Assembly (NCBI GenBank): GCA_041623475.1
Contig: JBFJWU010000030.1
Span: forward strand, 1 to 16,412
Source of the DNA: JBFJWU01 sp041623475 [NCBI: bacterium]
Lineage (GTDB): Bacteria > J088
Direction of reading: 5' to 3'
Length of the DNA: 16,412 bases
A program made the translations under genes and the position numbers. The notes under the pieces were generated by a model, which worked only from the letters and a program-made list of their open reading frames with translations, made no database searches and was not told the DNA's origin. Each line of letters begins with the position of its first letter. Within the stretch, counting starts at the first letter, position 1. Below are positions 1 to 15,384 of this stretch, in pieces.

Positions 1-3000
1 AGGGTATCGATGACACCCGGGTCCTGGTATTCATCAAAATCGCGGATACAGACACGGACATCATCACCCAGGGCAAAATTGGTCTTTGGCTGGCCGAACG
101 GGTCACAGAAAAAGACATCCACGCCCTCGTCGTTGCGGATTGTGATGGTATCCTCGGCAAACGCATTACCGGGATCCGCCAGGTTCCAGAATCGCGCCCT
201 GACCCGTTCGCCCTCGCGGGCCCGGATTGTTGAGTCCGGCACACCGATGGTCGCGTTGGTCGCACCAAATACAAACCCGTGGGCATTGGTCACGGGCGTC
301 TGCGGCGTCAACTGCAGGCCGACTTCGATATCACCGTTATCCAGATTTTCAATATTGAACGTGACGTCGACGGGGAATTTGGGAAAGTCCGGGATCGATG
401 CCGACTTGGCAAATATATACATTGGCTGGTTCTCGGCATAGAAGTCCACCGACTTTTCGTATGTCGGGTCGCGGAAATCGACCTGGGGCGCAAAAAACAG
501 CGTCACCGATGCCACCTGGTAGCGACCGGCGCTATTAAAATACGACCGGGTATTGCTGGAATACTGGCCATCGTTGGTCGTGTCGTTGTCCCAGGAATAA
601 GTCCCCTGGGTCACGTTGGTCCCGAACTCCACCCGGAAATCCCGCGGATCCGCGGGCGGCAACACCGTTCCGCTGGCCGTCATCCGCAGTTCTTCAACGA
701 TTTTCCATGTCGCAGCATAGTCCGGATCGGCGGTTGCCGGGCACAAACCGCCGCTGTTGGACGTGTCCTGGGTGACCTGGTCCAGCACACCGGTGTTGCC
801 GCTGGTCGGTGCCCAGTAACAGGTGGCGTTGTTGACCGGATCACCGTTGTTGTCCAGCACCTCGATCATCCCGTACCAGCCCATGACCAGGGCCGGGTCG
901 GTATCAAAATTGTTACCGCCGTTGCCGACACCCTCGACCGCTGCCTGGTTCAACAACCGTCCCTCGATCATCAGGACACCGCCGGCACCGTTGCCCTGGA
1001 ATCCGTTATCCGTCAGGGTCAGGTCAGGCAGGACATCGTCGAACGTCATCCCGGCCTGTGACGAGATCCCCTCGTCAACCGTCAACACAATGCCCCATTC
1101 GCCGCTGTCGGCAAAGCAGTTGTCCGCTACGGTCCAGTCGCCCCCTTCGGCAGAGATCGCGCTGCGGACCTGGTCGCGAAAACCCCTGGCGCCGACGCAA
1201 TTGGTATCCCCGTTGTCGTTGACCTGGCCAACCACATGCGGCTCGTCCGAGTAGATTCCATACTGGTTGCTGTCGATCAGGTTGTCGGTGACGATCAAGG
1301 TCGAACTGGTTCCGACGTAGTCGTTATCCAGCATGATCGCGGCAAAATTATGGTTGCTGATTGTGTTGTCGTCGACTTCAATCTGATTGGCGGTCATCGC
1401 CGAAATCTGGATCCCGTAACGGTCATTGCTGTCGATCAACGGATTGGAACGGATCAACACATCGGCACCCGACGCGGTCCGTTCGATCAGGATTCCCGCA
1501 GCATTAATCGAATTGACAATCGTATTGCCGGGGCCAATGTTGATATCCCCGGTATTGTCCCGGACCCAGACACCGGCGACGATATTACCGTCGATCGTAT
1601 TCTCGCGGATCGAGATACTGTCAACGTTGCCCTCGACGTAAATGCCACTGTCGCCCTTGACGTTGTCGGCAGTCGACCCGTTGCCATCCAGCGTATTGCC
1701 CAGGATTGTGAACCCGTCACCGGTTGTATCCAGATGGATCGCGTTGTAGTTGTTGTTCTGGATCGTGTTGCCGTTGGCTGATGCTCCGATCCGATGGTCA
1801 GCCGAATCCCCGTAGACGTACAGGCCATCCCGGCTGTTACCGTCAATGGTGTTGCGGTAGTAGTCGATGTCATCCGAATCTTCGAACTTCAGCCCCGCAC
1901 CCGAGTTTGAGTTGACCGTATTGTCACCAAAGGTCGCGTTGTCGGACTGGTAGAAATAAACACCGCCCTGGGAATTGGAGTTGATCGTATTGCCGGTGAC
2001 GGACAATTGGCTCGAGTCGATGGCAAGAACCCCACCCACCTCGTCGCCCCCGACGACTCCGATTGACCCGTTATTCGAAACCGTATTACCCCGGCCGGAA
2101 CGACCGATCTCAATCCCCGATGAAAACGACTGGACGATGATTCCGCCATCGGAGTTGAAACTGATGGTGTTTTCAAGCACGAGCGAGTTGTCGACAGCGA
2201 ATAACTCAACACCCGAGTCATCGTTGGACTGGATGCCATTGTTCACGATTGTCAGGTCGGTAGATGAAAAGGCGTAGATTCCGTCATTGACGTTGTCGTC
2301 GATATTCGTGTTTGCCTCGATCAGGTTTCCTGCAGCAACCTGGCGAATCTCGATCCCAAAGGTTCCGTTGTTTGAAATTGAGCTGTTCCCATAGACCGAG
2401 TTGTCAAATGTCAGGTCGTTAAGCTGGACACCAATTCGATTCTGGTCGATCGACGTATTGTCGGTCACACTGTTGCGCCCGGTCCCGCTGCCGGACAGCT
2501 TCACACCTGCTTCGTCGTTACTGTCCAGGACATTTCCCGGCCCGATGACATTGTCAATCGCACCGCTGGACAAGAGCGCCCCGGCTTGCGTATTGTCGTT
2601 CAAGGTCGAGTTTCTGACTGTAATGTTTGCGGACGTCTTGGAAATTTTGATCCCGTTCGTGTCGTTTCCCGACAGCGACGTGTTGTCCACCAGATGCCCG
2701 GACGTGCCATCCAGCGCGGTAAACCCGTCGTCGGCGTTGAAATCAAGGACGGAATTCTGGATCGTCAGCGACTGGACACCGGTTCCAGTCGCGATCACTC
2801 CGGATCGGGAGTTACCTGTCGAAGATATGTTGTCCAGGGTTCCACTGCTGATCTGTCCGGCAAAGGAAATGCCACTGCCTTCAAATGACTGCAGGTCGAT
2901 GTCCTCGATCGTGACGACCCCGGCACCAAGAATCCGTAAACCGTTTTCATCGTCCAGGTTGGGCGACGACTCTACCCTGGCCCTTGGATTGAAGCCCGAA

Positions 3001-3257
3001 TAGGTCAACGTAAAGTTTTCCTGGTTGGGCTTGTTAATCGTCGGCAACGGATTGCCGCTGTCGCCGACGACGATGATCCCGTCCACCTGGATATCGATGG
3101 TCGAATCCTCGGCCTCGGTGGCGGCGCGCTCCATGGCGTAACGCAATGTCCCAGGGGTACTGGTATCGTCGGTGCTGGTTACTGCATAAGTCGCGGCGTT
3201 GGCCCGCGATGCCGCCAGAATGGATACGGCCGCGAAAACGACCGCCAGGCGGGACAC
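1..3257 (-). CDS. Secreted right-handed parallel beta-helix repeat protein (3' end outside window)
   Basis: The frame is open from a GTG at 3257 to the window edge, about 1085 codons, with no stop; the C-terminus is missing. Residues 1-21 form a signal peptide (MSRLAVVFAAVSIL..., likely cleavage ANA|A), so the product should be exported. After the opening TYAVTSTDD...GTLRYAM, typical of this class, residues about 55-740 hold many irregular repeats of the form 'N.I..N...GI.....' with stacked Asn and Gly (SGNDTNGIKIS, NTINSNSQGGVYF, NTIDGNSRDGLYV). This is the NosD/pectate-lyase-like beta-helix pattern. From about residue 770 on the sequence changes to beta-sandwich-like segments with no clear family. 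I see no catalytic motif, so an adhesin, cell-surface or polysaccharide-acting role are all possible. The GTG overlaps the TAG stop of the cyclic-nucleotide-binding gene (TAGTG), implying translational coupling. The beta-helix class is well supported; the function is not known. Confidence 0.85.
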   Translation of the reverse strand, partial: MSRLAVVFAAVSILAASRANAATYAVTSTDDTSTPGTLRYAMERAATEAEDSTIDIQVDGIIVVGDSGNPLPTINKPNQENFTLTYSGFNPRARVESSPNLDDENGLRILGAGVVTIEDIDLQSFEGSGISFAGQISSGTLDNISSTGNSRSGVIATGTGVQSLTIQNSVLDFNADDGFTALDGTSGHLVDNTSLSGNDTNGIKISKTSANITVRNSTLNDNTQAGALLSSGAIDNVIGPGNVLDSNDEAGVKLSGSGTGRNSVTDNTSIDQNRIGVQLNDLTFDNSVYGNSSISNNGTFGIEIRQVAAGNLIEANTNIDDNVNDGIYAFSSTDLTIVNNGIQSNDDSGVELFAVDNSLVLENTISFNSDGGIIVQSFSSGIEIGRSGRGNTVSNNGSIGVVGGDEVGGVLAIDSSQLSVTGNTINSNSQGGVYFYQSDNATFGDNTVNSNSGAGLKFEDSDDIDYYRNTIDGNSRDGLYVYGDSADHRIGASANGNTIQNNNYNAIHLDTTGDGFTILGNTLDGNGSTADNVKGDSGIYVEGNVDSISIRENTIDGNIVAGVWVRDNTGDINIGPGNTIVNSINAAGILIERTASGADVLIRSNPLIDSNDRYGIQISAMTANQIEVDDNTISNHNFAAIMLDNDYVGTSSTLIVTDNLIDSNQYGIYSDEPHVVGQVNDNGDTNCVGARGFRDQVRSAISAEGGDWTVADNCFADSGEWGIVLTVDEGISSQAGMTFDDVLPDLTLTDNGFQGNGAGGVLMIEGRLLNQAAVEGVGNGGNNFDTDPALVMGWYGMIEVLDNNGDPVNNATCYWAPTSGNTGVLDQVTQDTSNSGGLCPATADPDYAATWKIVEELRMTASGTVLPPADPRDFRVEFGTNVTQGTYSWDNDTTNDGQYSSNTRSYFNSAGRYQVASVTLFFAPQVDFRDPTYEKSVDFYAENQPMYIFAKSASIPDFPKFPVDVTFNIENLDNGDIEVGLQLTPQTPVTNAHGFVFGATNATIGVPDSTIRAREGERVRARFWNLADPGNAFAEDTITIRNDEGVDVFFCDPFGQPKTNFALGDDVRVCIRDFDEYQDPGVIDT

Positions 3258-3715
3258 TAGTCGTCCGGCGTTTTTGCTGCTACCAACAGGTTTTCGTTGG
3301 ACGATCGCAATCGTTCACACAGCGACTCCAGGAAATTCTCATAGATCTTCAGCCGAGCTTCGGGAAACTCGTCCAGGATCTTTTCGAACGCCTGGCGCTC
3401 CAGGTAACAGACTGCGCCATCCGTTTCCGCCTCCACACTGGCCGACCGCGGACCGTGGTCGATCAGTCCAATTTCCCCGAAATGCTCCCCGCTGCCAAGC
3501 TGGGCCAGGGTCTCGCGACCGTGGTCCCATTCCTTGGTCACCAGAAACGAACCTTCCAGTACGACATAGAATCGGTCAGGATGCGCCCCTTCCTCGATCA
3601 GGCGATCGCCGGCGGACACGGACTGATGGACCAATACCTTGTTGAACTGAGCCAGTTGGATTTGGCTCAACCCCCTGAAAATAAAGATATTCTTGAGGAT
3701 CTTGGTATTTTCCAC
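3257..3715 (-). CDS. Cyclic-nucleotide-binding domain protein (stand-alone)
   Basis: 152 residues, essentially one cNMP-binding (CRP/PKA regulatory type) domain and nothing else. Residues 1-30 are an N-terminal helical lead (LKNIFIFRGLSQIQLAQF). The beta-roll follows with AGDRLIEEGAHPDRFYVVLEG at 35-55 and the phosphate-binding cassette FGEIGLIDHGPRSA at 79-92. Within the cassette Glu81 and Arg90, the residues that contact ribose and phosphate in the family, are both present, so nucleotide binding is plausible. The C-terminal helix (about 108-145) is not followed by a helix-turn-helix, so this is not a CRP-like transcription factor. The start is GTG, preceded by an AGGGAAGG ribosome-binding site and an extended -10 about 20 bases upstream. 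Its stop overlaps the start of the secreted beta-helix gene, so the two are probably one transcript. Partner and output are unknown. Confidence 0.88.
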   Translation of the reverse strand: MENTKILKNIFIFRGLSQIQLAQFNKVLVHQSVSAGDRLIEEGAHPDRFYVVLEGSFLVTKEWDHGRETLAQLGSGEHFGEIGLIDHGPRSASVEAETDGAVCYLERQAFEKILDEFPEARLKIYENFLESLCERLRSSNENLLVAAKTPDD

Positions 3716-11598: not shown

Positions 11599-11940
11599 AT
11601 GGGAACAATGCCAAAATTGCTGATGATTGTCGCACTTGCGTGCGCACTGGGCGGCTGTGGTGAGGAACCTCCACTGATTGAATCGTTCTGTGTCGAAATA
11701 CCCGACCCATCATTGCCGTCGCCCAATAATACAGAGCTTATTCCCGCAGACCCGCCGTACGACCAGGTCAAGTATTCCTGGAATTGTGTCAATCAGTTTT
11801 TCATTGAGGAGCGGTGGGGGCGCAACGAGGCGGATTGCTGGTTCAAACTGGAGACCTATACCTATCCCAAGGAGGGTTGCGTTGAATCGCTGCCCGAGGA
11901 ACTCCGCGAAGGATCCGTCGTAAAAACGCAGGCCCGCTGA
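11599..11940 (+). CDS. Small cysteine-rich putative lipoprotein
   Basis: 113 residues, not recognised as a known family. The start MGTMPKLLMIVALACALGGC is a lipoprotein signal: one lysine, a hydrophobic core and a lipobox LGG|C with Cys20 as the lipidated residue. The mature protein of about 94 residues begins GEEPP, so it carries no Asp at +2 that would keep it in the inner membrane by the E. coli rule. Besides Cys20 the mature part has Cys31, Cys63, Cys80 and Cys94, enough for two disulfides, plus several Trp/Tyr/Phe (YSWNCVNQFF, DCWFKLETYTY). The start at 11599 has AGGGA about 8 bases upstream; ATG at 11608 (MPKLL) is a possible alternative. It is separated from purF by 54 bases and from the kinase by 73, and may be its own transcript. 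Confidence 0.75.
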   Translation: MGTMPKLLMIVALACALGGCGEEPPLIESFCVEIPDPSLPSPNNTELIPADPPYDQVKYSWNCVNQFFIEERWGRNEADCWFKLETYTYPKEGCVESLPEELREGSVVKTQAR

Positions 11941-12013: not shown

Positions 12014-13438
12014 GTGATTCCAACTACATTCCCCATGTGGAGCTTCCTGGTCGCGTCCTTTGCGATTGTCGGGATTTATGAATCCGTTCGCTTTATCGGT
12101 CTGTATCGTCGTCGTCCCGATGACCCTCGCCTGCGGCACGCGTGCGAGTTATCGCTGGTTGGCGGCCTCTACGGCCTGTGCATGGCCGTTATCTACGCCC
12201 AGCCCTCCCCCGAAGGCGCGTACCAGTGGGCTCAATGGCGGTTCGGAATTGCCGCGTTCTTCCCCTACGCCCTGGTTGCCTCGGTCGAAAGCCTGGCGGG
12301 ACGCAGCGGTGGCCTGGTCCGGCGACTGTCACTTGTCCTGATCGCGATCCAGGTTGGCGGCCTGCTGCTGGACCCGGCGCTTGTTGTGAAATATCAGTTT
12401 CGGATTCGTGAAGTGGCATTGCTCCACCAGACGTTCTACGATTTCGTTGCCGGGCCCCTGGGATTGATCCAGTCGCTATTTGGCGGCTGGGTTTTCGGCC
12501 ACATTACCTGGATCATCGTCCAGCAGCGGGGGCGCCAGGGTGCACCCTCGATTCCGGCATTGTCACTGCTGGCGTTCGCGATCACCGGTGTCGTCGACCT
12601 GTTTATTGTCCAGGGATTCCTGAACCTGCCTTATATGCTGGAGTTCGGGTGCATCTTTATCGTTATTTTCGTGAACCGTGCCTTGCTTGATGAGTATTTT
12701 GACCTGCTCCAGGAAAAGGAAAAGGTAGAGAAATTTCGCAACCGCCTGCTGACCAACATCAGCCACGAGCTGCGCACGCCGCTGGGCGTCGGGCTGGGCT
12801 ATCTGGAGCTGATCGAACGGCGTGGCGAGGCGCTGCCTGAACAGGAAATGGAATCTGTACGCAAGGCCCGCAGCGCGCTACTCGAAGAGGCCGCGTTGAT
12901 CGATGAATTGATCGACCATTCACGGTTCGCGGCCGAGGACCCGGTGCCGGACATGGTTGAAGTCGAGATCAACGGGATGATCGACCAGATTTTCCAGAAC
13001 CTCGACCTGCTGGCCCGTCGCAAGGGCGTCACATTGTCCGCCGAAATCGCGCCGGAAATCCAGGCCTGCGTCGATCCCCGCTGGTTTCAGCTGGCGGTCA
13101 AGAATCTGGTCCACAATGCCATCAAGTTCAGCAAAGACGGCCAGACGGTCCGTGTCGAAGCCCTGCTGGCGGAAAATGACGAATTGGTTATCCGCGTCCG
13201 CGACCAGGGCCGGGGGATTCCGTTCCAGGAACAGCGGGAGATTTTTGAACGATTCGTCCAGGGCGACGGGGCCGCGCGCAACGACACGGATACCGGCCTG
13301 GGCATTGGCCTGGCACTCGTTCGCGACGTTGTCCTTGGCCACAACGGTACAATCAATGTTTTCAGCCGCCAGGGCAAGGGCTCGACCTTTGAGATCCGGG
13401 TGCCACGAAACCCGGACACTGAAACAGTCGAAGACTGA
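12014..13438 (+). CDS. Membrane sensor histidine kinase with multi-helix N-terminal domain
   Basis: 474 residues. The N-terminal half has about seven hydrophobic segments (near 8-30, 46-62, 77-92, 103-120, 145-168, 178-200, 208-224) and no large periplasmic loop. It resembles the seven-helix sensing regions of some kinases and may sense something in the membrane. A short charged linker (LLQEKEKVEKFRNR) follows, then HisKA with the H box NISHELRTPL and phospho-accepting His251. The ATPase domain has the N box KNLVHNAIKFS (363-373, Asn368), G1 DQGRGIP (397-403), an F box FERFVQ and G2 GLGIGLA (428-434). All catalytic motifs are intact. The start is taken as GTG at 12014 with GGGA upstream; ATG at 12035 is possible. 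No response regulator is adjacent in the window. Its TGA shares a base with a possible ATG of the next gene (TGATG), suggesting cotranscription with the ERG2/sigma-1-like gene. Confidence 0.93.
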   Translation: MIPTTFPMWSFLVASFAIVGIYESVRFIGLYRRRPDDPRLRHACELSLVGGLYGLCMAVIYAQPSPEGAYQWAQWRFGIAAFFPYALVASVESLAGRSGGLVRRLSLVLIAIQVGGLLLDPALVVKYQFRIREVALLHQTFYDFVAGPLGLIQSLFGGWVFGHITWIIVQQRGRQGAPSIPALSLLAFAITGVVDLFIVQGFLNLPYMLEFGCIFIVIFVNRALLDEYFDLLQEKEKVEKFRNRLLTNISHELRTPLGVGLGYLELIERRGEALPEQEMESVRKARSALLEEAALIDELIDHSRFAAEDPVPDMVEVEINGMIDQIFQNLDLLARRKGVTLSAEIAPEIQACVDPRWFQLAVKNLVHNAIKFSKDGQTVRVEALLAENDELVIRVRDQGRGIPFQEQREIFERFVQGDGAARNDTDTGLGIGLALVRDVVLGHNGTINVFSRQGKGSTFEIRVPRNPDTETVED

Positions 13439-14055
13439 TGGCGGCCGCTTGTCAACCGGCTTCGAAAAGTGCAGGCACCATGACCACCTATAAGATCGAC
13501 CCCGAAGTCCTGTCTGAGGTCTGCAACGAAGTCCTGGAGTTTTCTCTGGATGACGGCACCATGTTCCGCGAGATCCGCAGTCGCCTGGCCGAACGGTATC
13601 CCGGCATTGTTGACCCGTCCGAACGCCCCTGGATCGGCAGCCGCGCCGGCGGGGTCCTGGGCAAGTTGACGCTGCTGTACGCCAGCCTGAACGAATACCT
13701 GATTATCTTCGGCACACCGGTGGGCACCCAGGGATTTTCCGGCCGTTACAACCACATGCAGATCTGGGATTTCTTCGTCGCCGGGGAAACGTCGACCTGT
13801 GACCTGGAAACCGACCAGATCGTGCCCGACATCTATGGCCCGGGCGATACCGGATTCCTGGACAAGGGCCACAGCCTGACGTGCGAGATGAAACCGGGCA
13901 GCTGGATGATTGAATACGGTCGCGGACCGAACATTACGGCCCTGCCGTTTGCCCTGATGGATTCACTGCTCAGTTCTGTCGAACTGAAATCCTTTTTCCT
14001 GACCATGTCCGAATACAGCCGCTTTATCCTGCGATCGTTTCGCGGACCCGGCTAA
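13438..14055 (+). CDS. ERG2/sigma-1 receptor family protein
   Basis: 205 residues. The sequence matches the ERG2/sigma-1 receptor family almost from end to end. YKIDPEVLSEVCNEVL (18-33) resembles yeast ERG2 'Y.FDP..L.EICN'. RAGGVLGKLTLLYASLNEYLIIFGTPVGTQG spans 69-99, and WMIEYGRG (156-163) is nearly identical to 'WMVEYGRG' of the human receptor. PFALMDSLLSS (170-180) matches its 'FALADTVFST'. Asp111 and Glu159 align with the receptor's ligand-contacting Asp126 and Glu172, and with the acidic pair needed by ERG2 sterol C8-isomerase. The His of the family's 'GHSG' is Phe100 here. Unlike the eukaryotic proteins it has no N-terminal membrane helix. The ATG at 13438 overlaps the kinase stop (TGATG); ATG at 13480 (MTTYKID, 191 residues, nearer the family start, CAGG upstream) is equally likely. 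Substrate unknown: a sterol, another cyclic terpenoid or a lipid ligand are possible. Confidence 0.88.
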   Translation: MAAACQPASKSAGTMTTYKIDPEVLSEVCNEVLEFSLDDGTMFREIRSRLAERYPGIVDPSERPWIGSRAGGVLGKLTLLYASLNEYLIIFGTPVGTQGFSGRYNHMQIWDFFVAGETSTCDLETDQIVPDIYGPGDTGFLDKGHSLTCEMKPGSWMIEYGRGPNITALPFALMDSLLSSVELKSFFLTMSEYSRFILRSFRGPG

Positions 14056-14074: not shown

Positions 14075-15334
14075 CTACTTGTTCAGGCCCAGCTCCAGCC
14101 GGGCGGCCGTCAACAGGTTGATGTCCGTGGTCCCGGCACCGATTTCCAGCAGCTTGGCATCACGGCACAGCTTTTCCACGTGGTATTCCTGCATATACCC
14201 GTACCCGCCCAGGATCTGGATCGCTTCGTTGGCAACCTCAAAACTGGCCTTGCTGCAATAGGCCTTGCTGGCACAGATAAAGGCAAAATCCCGGATGCCG
14301 TTGCGGGTCATCCAGGCGGTCCGATAGACGATATTCTCAATGTTCTTCAGGTGGATGTACATGTTGGCCAGCTTCAGCTGCACGGCCTGGAACTCGCCGA
14401 TTGACTTGCCGAACTGCTTGCGCTCCAGCGAGTAATCCCTGGCAATTTCATAGCAGCGCTCGACGATTCCCCAGGCCATGGCCGGCAGGCCACTGCGTTC
14501 ATCACCCAGGCTGTCCTTGGCACTGCCACGGGTTGATTTTTTAACGCCACCCAGCAGATGGTCATCGCTGACCCGGACATCATCGAAAAACAGCTCACCG
14601 GTCGGGCTGTCCTTCATGCCCATCTTGACCATGGCCTCGCCTATGTCAAACCCGTCCATACCGCGCTCCAGTACAAATGTGCCTACGGGCGAGCCGCCGT
14701 CACCGGCATCCAGGGATGGATCATCCAGCCGACAATAAACGACGTAGAAATCTGCATCGGGTCCATTGGTAATGAATGTCTTCTGGCCGTTGATCACCCA
14801 CTGGTCACCATCGCGTTTGGCCGTCGTGCGCATCGACCCGAACGCATCGGAGCCGGCCCCCGGCTCGGTCAGGCACCAGCTGCCCACCTTGTCAAAGGTG
14901 GCCAGGGGCAACCCCCAGCGTTCAATCTGCTCGGCCGTGCCTTTTTTGTTAACGGCACCGCCTGCCAGGCCCAACGATACGCCAAAACTCATGGCAAATC
15001 CGGGACTGATTCGGCTCAGCTCCTTGAACAGAATGAACGGAAACATCATGTCTTCGCCGCCGGCGGCCATCGTGTTTTCACGCTTGGCATCATCGCCCTG
15101 GCTTTTCATCTTTTCGATCTGCTTGCGGACCCCGGCCTCGGCCATCTGGGCAATTCCAAACGTATCGACCAGCTTTTTCATGATCCCGTAGGGTTTCATA
15201 TCGCCCTTTTCCAGCGCCGGAACGTGGGGCAGTAATTCTTTCTCGCAGAACTGCCGCAGCATGTCCTGCATCATCTTCTGCACGTCGTTCAGTTCGAAAT
15301 AGGTCTCTGGCATCTGGTCCTGCAATTGCTGCAT
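14075..15334 (-). CDS. Acyl-CoA dehydrogenase family protein
   Basis: 419 residues, a cytoplasmic FAD enzyme expected to form a C2-C3 double bond in an acyl-CoA and pass electrons to ETF. Signature 1 WCLTEPGAGSDAFGS (153-167) and signature 2 with QILGGYGYMQEY (373-384) are clear, as is RKQFGKSIGEFQAVQ (305-319). At the position of the MCAD catalytic base ('YEGT') it reads IGAGT, so Ala400 replaces Glu. Glu279 in LGDERSGLPA aligns with the catalytic Glu of isovaleryl-CoA and long-chain dehydrogenases, so the base is probably moved to that helix. A charged segment at about 67-95 (RKQIEKMKSQGDDAKRE...) replaces the usual 'EEYGG' region. ATG at 15334 is chosen for its strong AAGGGGAG site 5 bases upstream; the frame is open for 45 bases more. 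A TetR-type operator lies in the leader. Substrate unknown. Confidence 0.93.
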   Translation of the reverse strand: MQQLQDQMPETYFELNDVQKMMQDMLRQFCEKELLPHVPALEKGDMKPYGIMKKLVDTFGIAQMAEAGVRKQIEKMKSQGDDAKRENTMAAGGEDMMFPFILFKELSRISPGFAMSFGVSLGLAGGAVNKKGTAEQIERWGLPLATFDKVGSWCLTEPGAGSDAFGSMRTTAKRDGDQWVINGQKTFITNGPDADFYVVYCRLDDPSLDAGDGGSPVGTFVLERGMDGFDIGEAMVKMGMKDSPTGELFFDDVRVSDDHLLGGVKKSTRGSAKDSLGDERSGLPAMAWGIVERCYEIARDYSLERKQFGKSIGEFQAVQLKLANMYIHLKNIENIVYRTAWMTRNGIRDFAFICASKAYCSKASFEVANEAIQILGGYGYMQEYHVEKLCRDAKLLEIGAGTTDINLLTAARLELGLNK

Positions 15335-15384
15335 TGCGACTCCCCTTGCATTGGATATGGTCCAGCGCGGCGCTGGCAACTTTA

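Follow-up and report, generated by a model that had tools for sequence, protein, structure and literature searches.

The sigma-1 receptor (SIGMAR1; PDB 5HK1 and 7W2B) has been described as "an evolutionary isolate", with yeast ERG2 as the single homologue known (PMC10094450, 2023; like the other papers below, cited from part of its text), and yeast ERG2 is nearly 30% identical to the receptor (PMC12398221). In the receptor pocket, E172 contacts the basic nitrogen of the ligand, D126 hydrogen-bonds E172, and both residues are essential for ligand binding; virtual screening on the receptor prefers steroids (PMC10094450). His116 is also listed in the pocket, to whose residues Tyr103 has been added (PMC6017133). 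The EBP/EXPERA sterol isomerases have an unrelated five-helix membrane fold and are functional analogues of ERG2 in delta8-delta7 isomerization (PMC6549186).

A search of the open-access literature, covering titles and abstract openings among the matches listed and with most subscription papers outside its scope, returned no study of bacterial members of the ERG2/sigma-1 family. Reports of bacterial "EBP" were considered as published members and set aside because, in the part of their text available, they name a different family. Here we describe a bacterial gene of the ERG2/sigma-1 family in a 16,412-nucleotide stretch of contig JBFJWU010000030.1, referred to below as the window.

Family membership and start of the gene

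The gene, its pocket codons, and its neighbors in the window are as follows:

11599-11940, plus strand: small ORF upstream of the histidine kinase gene, without a Pfam match
12014-13438, plus strand: membrane histidine kinase (HisKA and HATPase_c domains, N-terminal hydrophobic segments), directly upstream of the family gene
13438-13440, plus strand: alternative ATG, overlapping the histidine kinase stop TGA (13436-13438) as TGATG
13438-14055, plus strand: longer form of the ERG2/sigma-1 ORF, intact, 205 aa from the in-frame upstream ATG
13480-14055, plus strand: ERG2/sigma-1 family CDS, 191 aa from the likelier start
13735-13737, plus strand: codon for Phe86, where the human receptor has His116
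13768-13770, plus strand: codon for Asp97 (Asp111 of the 205-aa form), which aligns with Asp126 of the human receptor
13912-13914, plus strand: codon for Glu145 (Glu159 of the 205-aa form), which aligns with Glu172 of the human receptor
14075-15379, minus strand: acyl-CoA dehydrogenase, convergent, ending about 20 nt from the stop of the family gene

The earlier note had read this ORF as an ERG2/sigma-1 receptor homologue, and the profile search bears that reading out. Using hmmscan, the window ORF matched Pfam ERG2_Sigma1R (PF04622) with an E-value of 8.4e-40 and 136.8 bits against a cut-off of 21, covering profile positions 20-203 of 210; the feared lack of a significant match did not occur. 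For the window protein, no other Pfam family, EBP included, matched at E-values up to 0.1, and no NCBIfam family matched at up to 1e-5. The only PDB sequences matched by phmmer at E-values up to 1 were four distinct sigma-1 receptors (best 8.8e-26), and a profile built from five bacterial relatives retrieved the same four, with a best E-value of 1.7e-42. At the level of sequence, chance resemblance to the sigma-1 family is ruled out, and the window protein belongs to the ERG2/sigma-1 superfamily with about as much certainty as sequence data can give.

The ORF contains two in-frame ATGs, at 13438 and 13480. The first overlaps the end of the histidine kinase gene, and the second lies 41 nt beyond that end. 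Translation from ATG 13480 opens with MTTYKIDPE, which in the alignment matches the MAYKIDPE(...) start of a relative from a Desulfobacteraceae metagenome-assembled genome (L001). Because of this conservation, we prefer the start at 13480, which would give a protein of 191 aa with the key residues D97, E145, Y73, and F86. A promoter and terminator scan gave results at or below chance.

Pocket residues, predicted fold, and membrane anchor

To compare the pocket across the family, we used a MAFFT alignment of 36 bacterial sequences and two sigma-1 fragments, with the human numbering checked. The window protein is 35% identical to the sigma-1 receptor over 159 aligned columns, and its segments WMIEYGRG and GRY...D..VAG align with the human receptor as had been claimed. 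Asp111 and Glu159 of the longer form, proposed as the acidic ligand pair, fall on human Asp126 and Glu172, and the family His of the GHSG motif (human H116) is replaced by Phe, again as the earlier note had read it. The window protein keeps the receptor residues at Y103, D126, E172, F107, S117, Y120, T202, and Y206. In contrast, it has Leu at H154 as well as Phe at H116, does not keep W89 and W164, and carries a one-residue insertion before the Asp.

Across the bacterial sequences, Glu at the E172 position (E145 in the window) and Tyr at the Y103 position (Y73) were present in 36 of 36. The D126 position was Asp in eight of 36 (the window protein, L001, and six others) and Lys in the other 28, so an intact acid pair is not general among the bacterial members aligned here. 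At the H116 position, Phe was found in 30 sequences and His in six of the 36, and none had His at the H154 position. The window protein and L001 combine the Phe typical of the actinobacterial sequences grouped around genome G583 with the receptor-type Asp-Glu pair. The G583-group proteins share with the window protein the GxxGFSGRY motif, the missing anchor, and the inserted residue, but differ from it at the D126 position, where all 27 of their rows carry Lys.

An AlphaFold2 model computed from the window protein and four relatives (L001-L004) reached a mean pLDDT of 78.5 and a pTM of 0.78, with low confidence in the C-terminal helices (block means 37-68). For this predicted model, the top Foldseek ranks were sigma-1 receptor chains (TM 0.79-0.84 by query length), and VIA-align against 5HK1 gave a Z-score of 23.9 and an rmsd of 2.3 over 185 aligned residues, whereas the best other cupin scored 11.6. 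The ligand-binding domain of the window protein is therefore predicted to adopt the cupin-like beta barrel of the sigma-1 type; a fold lacking the barrel, the other outcome that had been envisaged, did not appear. The end offset of the superposition (145 + 27 = 172) is consistent with the assignment of E145. By their alignment with the receptor residues, Asp97 and Glu145 would both face the cavity.

Model residues 1-191 superpose on residues 32-218 of the 5HK1 chain, that is, on the part after the receptor's transmembrane helix. The 19-residue Kyte-Doolittle means peaked at 1.33 overall and at 0.39 within the first 60 residues. By the hydropathy scan and by the start of the model at human residue 32, the window protein has no N-terminal transmembrane anchor, in agreement with the earlier note. 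Since the anchor is missing, the name "sigma-1 receptor" should not be applied to this protein. Fungal ERG2, likened to the window protein by family (PF04622) alone, likewise differs from it by the anchor that is absent here. Two C-terminal helices that are membrane-adjacent in the receptor have counterparts in the window model, making a peripheral membrane protein possible, rather than a freely soluble one. With a hydrophobic moment of 0.61 in the last helix of the model (169-188), peripheral membrane binding is plausible.

Distribution and phylogeny of bacterial relatives

Scanning genome contigs with two peptide patterns returned 149 stretches, four of which were relatives, a count that depends on those patterns: L001, with 66-67% identity, and three actinobacterial sequences at 30-34%. 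We also counted PF04622 in whole genomes, with each center genome included in its set. The family was found in one of 395 genomes of the phylum draw around L001's genome and in one of 59 relatives of that genome, in both cases the center itself. Among actinobacteria, it occurred in one of 61 relatives of an Amycolatopsis genome (again the center), in three of 296 genomes of the phylum draw, and in 35 of 248 relatives of G583, whose group we guess to be mycobacterial. None of 14 control genomes contained it. By these sequence matches, the window protein is not unique and has many bacterial relatives.

From the 35 G583-set genomes, five without a locus were left out of the alignment, and L014 is partial. 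The starts of the relatives were chosen by a script seeking an MxxxDP-like start, so the absence of an anchor in them is not independent of that choice. The closest further relatives sit in the actinobacterial set, with 40-43% identity to the window protein (measured for L010, L016, and L021). For ten bacterial members, identity to the human receptor was measured over the aligned domain and ranged from 27 to 43%. One bacterial member, L013 (1501-2058, genome G931), has a much higher Pfam score (221 bits), carries a receptor-like His116, Asp, and Glu, and shares 43% identity with the human receptor across 158 columns. In another genome (G939:C1:4923045-4925291), the family gene lies in two pieces about 1.7 kb apart, perhaps an interrupted copy.

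We constructed a tree of 35 rows (33 bacterial and two sigma-1, with L014, L025, and L039 dropped); its root is arbitrary, long branches meet in it, and it includes no ERG2 sequence. In this tree, the window protein and L001 grouped with the G583-type sequences and L015 (split support 100/99), apart from sigma-1, L013, and other actinobacteria, and the pair of the window protein and L001 was itself supported at 82/60.

The family proteins of the window (13480-14055) and of L001 (2927-3505) are 66% identical, whereas for PurF the identity between the window and L001's genome (G001) is only 52%. In the phylum draw around G001, where 198 of 198 genomes matched, the window PurF reached at most 63% among the matches listed. 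The gap between 66% and 52% suggests that the gene was probably transferred horizontally or that the 4.2-kb contig L001 was misbinned. Phage, plasmid, and viral origins were considered and rejected: plasmids contained no match for the window protein or for one actinobacterial relative, and 50 and 38 pattern-matching stretches in viral contigs encoded no relative.

The same disparity in identity, together with the sporadic distribution seen in the phylum draw around L001's genome, could also fit a horizontally acquired gene that is drifting under relaxed function. We consider this highly improbable, as the frame is intact, the GC3 of the gene is host-like (0.76 vs. 0.70-0.75 in the pur genes of the window), and the residues at the E172, Y103, and D126 positions are kept.

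Gene neighborhoods and proposed function

We then analyzed the genes around the relatives. Neighboring ORFs in high-GC loci came from a simple gene caller and were trusted only with Pfam or tblastn support. In 17 of 27 G583-group loci, the end of a P450 gene lies just before the family gene; 16 of these P450s are close orthologues of the second P450 of the operon set out below (at least 79.9% identity over at least 383 residues), and the other, in L035, is a different P450 directly upstream. Among the remaining loci, L028 has a VOC gene upstream and L031 a P450 piece more than 1.2 kb upstream, while eight of the 27 have neither a P450 nor a VOC gene within 1.5 kb upstream.

In L011 (2637-9680) and homologous loci, the operon order is a CbbQ-type AAA protein, two proteins without a Pfam match, a P450, two DAP_DH-like dehydrogenases, a VOC protein, a P450, and the ERG2-like protein. 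The two Pfam-less proteins are membrane proteins by our reading of their sequences. The wider context covers 21 of the 35 genomes, three of them from other branches; of the resulting 18 G583-group loci, 12 share the upstream CbbQ-type AAA gene, the two proteins, the P450, and one or two DAP_DH genes. The nearest PDB relatives on the P450 side are diverse (P450s without a name, a CYP125 ancestor, P450cin, and others), and what they say about the P450 substrate is suggestive only.

Outside this arrangement, P450, SDR, and enoyl-CoA hydratase genes lie near L049, an FMO-like gene lies near L050, and L004 is accompanied by 3-beta-HSD-like and Steroid_dh genes on the facing strand; no steroid- or P450-type neighbors were among the genes named for L002, L003, and L012. 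The neighborhoods of part of the relatives point to oxidation of hydrophobic polycyclic compounds, a context that the window itself does not have, and the P450 adjacency in relatives is a hint that the family may help to transform molecules of a steroid- or terpene-like kind.

Based on these data, we propose that the window protein is a cupin-barrel protein, either soluble or peripheral, that probably isomerizes a double bond in a hydrophobic polycyclic substrate; we give this reading a probability of roughly one half. By analogy with ERG2, it may act by acid-base migration of a double bond. A steroid- or terpenoid-like hydrophobic polycyclic molecule would enter the barrel from the membrane side, by the C-terminal helices; Glu145, sharing a hydrogen bond with a protonated Asp97, would act as the acid-base, and the double bond would be moved through a carbocation, as with an ERG2-type isomerase. 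Several observations weigh against this reading: Lys replaces Asp at the D126 position in most of the bacterial sequences aligned, the receptor's His116 and His154 are not kept in the window protein, the P450 context is missing both in the window and in L001, and eight of the 27 actinobacterial loci show no P450 or VOC gene within 1.5 kb upstream. Moreover, the sigma-1 receptor keeps the acid-pair site but is not known to be an isomerase, so conservation of the site is no proof of catalysis.

The receptor shares this pocket although no enzyme activity is known for it, which also fits a non-catalytic ligand-binding protein. In that case, the barrel would capture a hydrophobic or cationic amphiphilic molecule and either pass it on to a partner or report its presence there, the adjacent histidine kinase being one candidate. 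The kinase gene is immediately upstream, with a TGATG overlap if translation begins at 13438 or a 41-nt gap if at 13480, and its product carries hydrophobic segments at the N-terminus but no sensor domain known to Pfam. However, this kinase pairing occurs in the window only: L001 has an FAD/NAD(P) oxidoreductase gene upstream instead, with a rhodanese-rubrerythrin gene also adjoining, and P450s or other genes take its place in the actinobacterial relatives examined. We therefore regard a ligand-binding role as possible but doubtful. Its most specific form, a bacterial sigma-receptor signaling pair in which the anchorless barrel is translationally coupled to the sensor-less kinase and senses steroid-like or cationic amphiphilic molecules, seems very unlikely. 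Elsewhere in the window, the small ORF upstream of the kinase (11599-11940) is a lipoprotein by our reading of its N-terminus, and positions 3-3314 on the minus strand, open at the edge, encode a large right-handed beta-helix/NosD-like repeat protein.

If the window protein is an isomerase, the identity of its substrate comes into question. The earlier note had suggested a sterol or hopanoid-like compound, and a protein of the same family with the same acid pair as the sigma-1 receptor could be a genuine delta8-delta7 sterol isomerase serving de novo synthesis of sterols (or hopanoids) in a bacterium, given that some bacteria make sterols (PMC12004948). The genomes of the relatives did not bear this out. 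Squalene epoxidase (PF08491) had no match in six of six relatives' genomes. Among 35 relatives' genomes, G583 being shared with the six, eight gave weak, partial matches, the best with 25.3 bits over about 95 of 276 positions (curated cut-off 20.1). Because the same model matched two of 14 control genomes (Escherichia coli and Caulobacter vibrioides), we read these eight as generic flavoprotein similarity. Strong cyclase matches in three of the six genomes do not show sterols, and no sterol gene was recognized in the window.

The relatives searched yielded no squalene epoxidase match of full length, which leaves a connection with de novo sterol synthesis unsupported, and we consider the delta8-delta7 isomerase unlikely. 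For the double-bond isomerase that we prefer, an exogenous compound or an oxidized intermediate is a more likely substrate than a de novo sterol product.

The bacterial members may also be of use for understanding the family as a whole. Anchorless bacterial relatives could give crystallizable proteins without a membrane anchor, and could offer both Asp-Glu and Lys-Glu as naturally occurring versions of the acid pair. Through the P450 operons, the chemistry of the family in bacteria becomes approachable, which bears on the evolutionary origin of the receptor.
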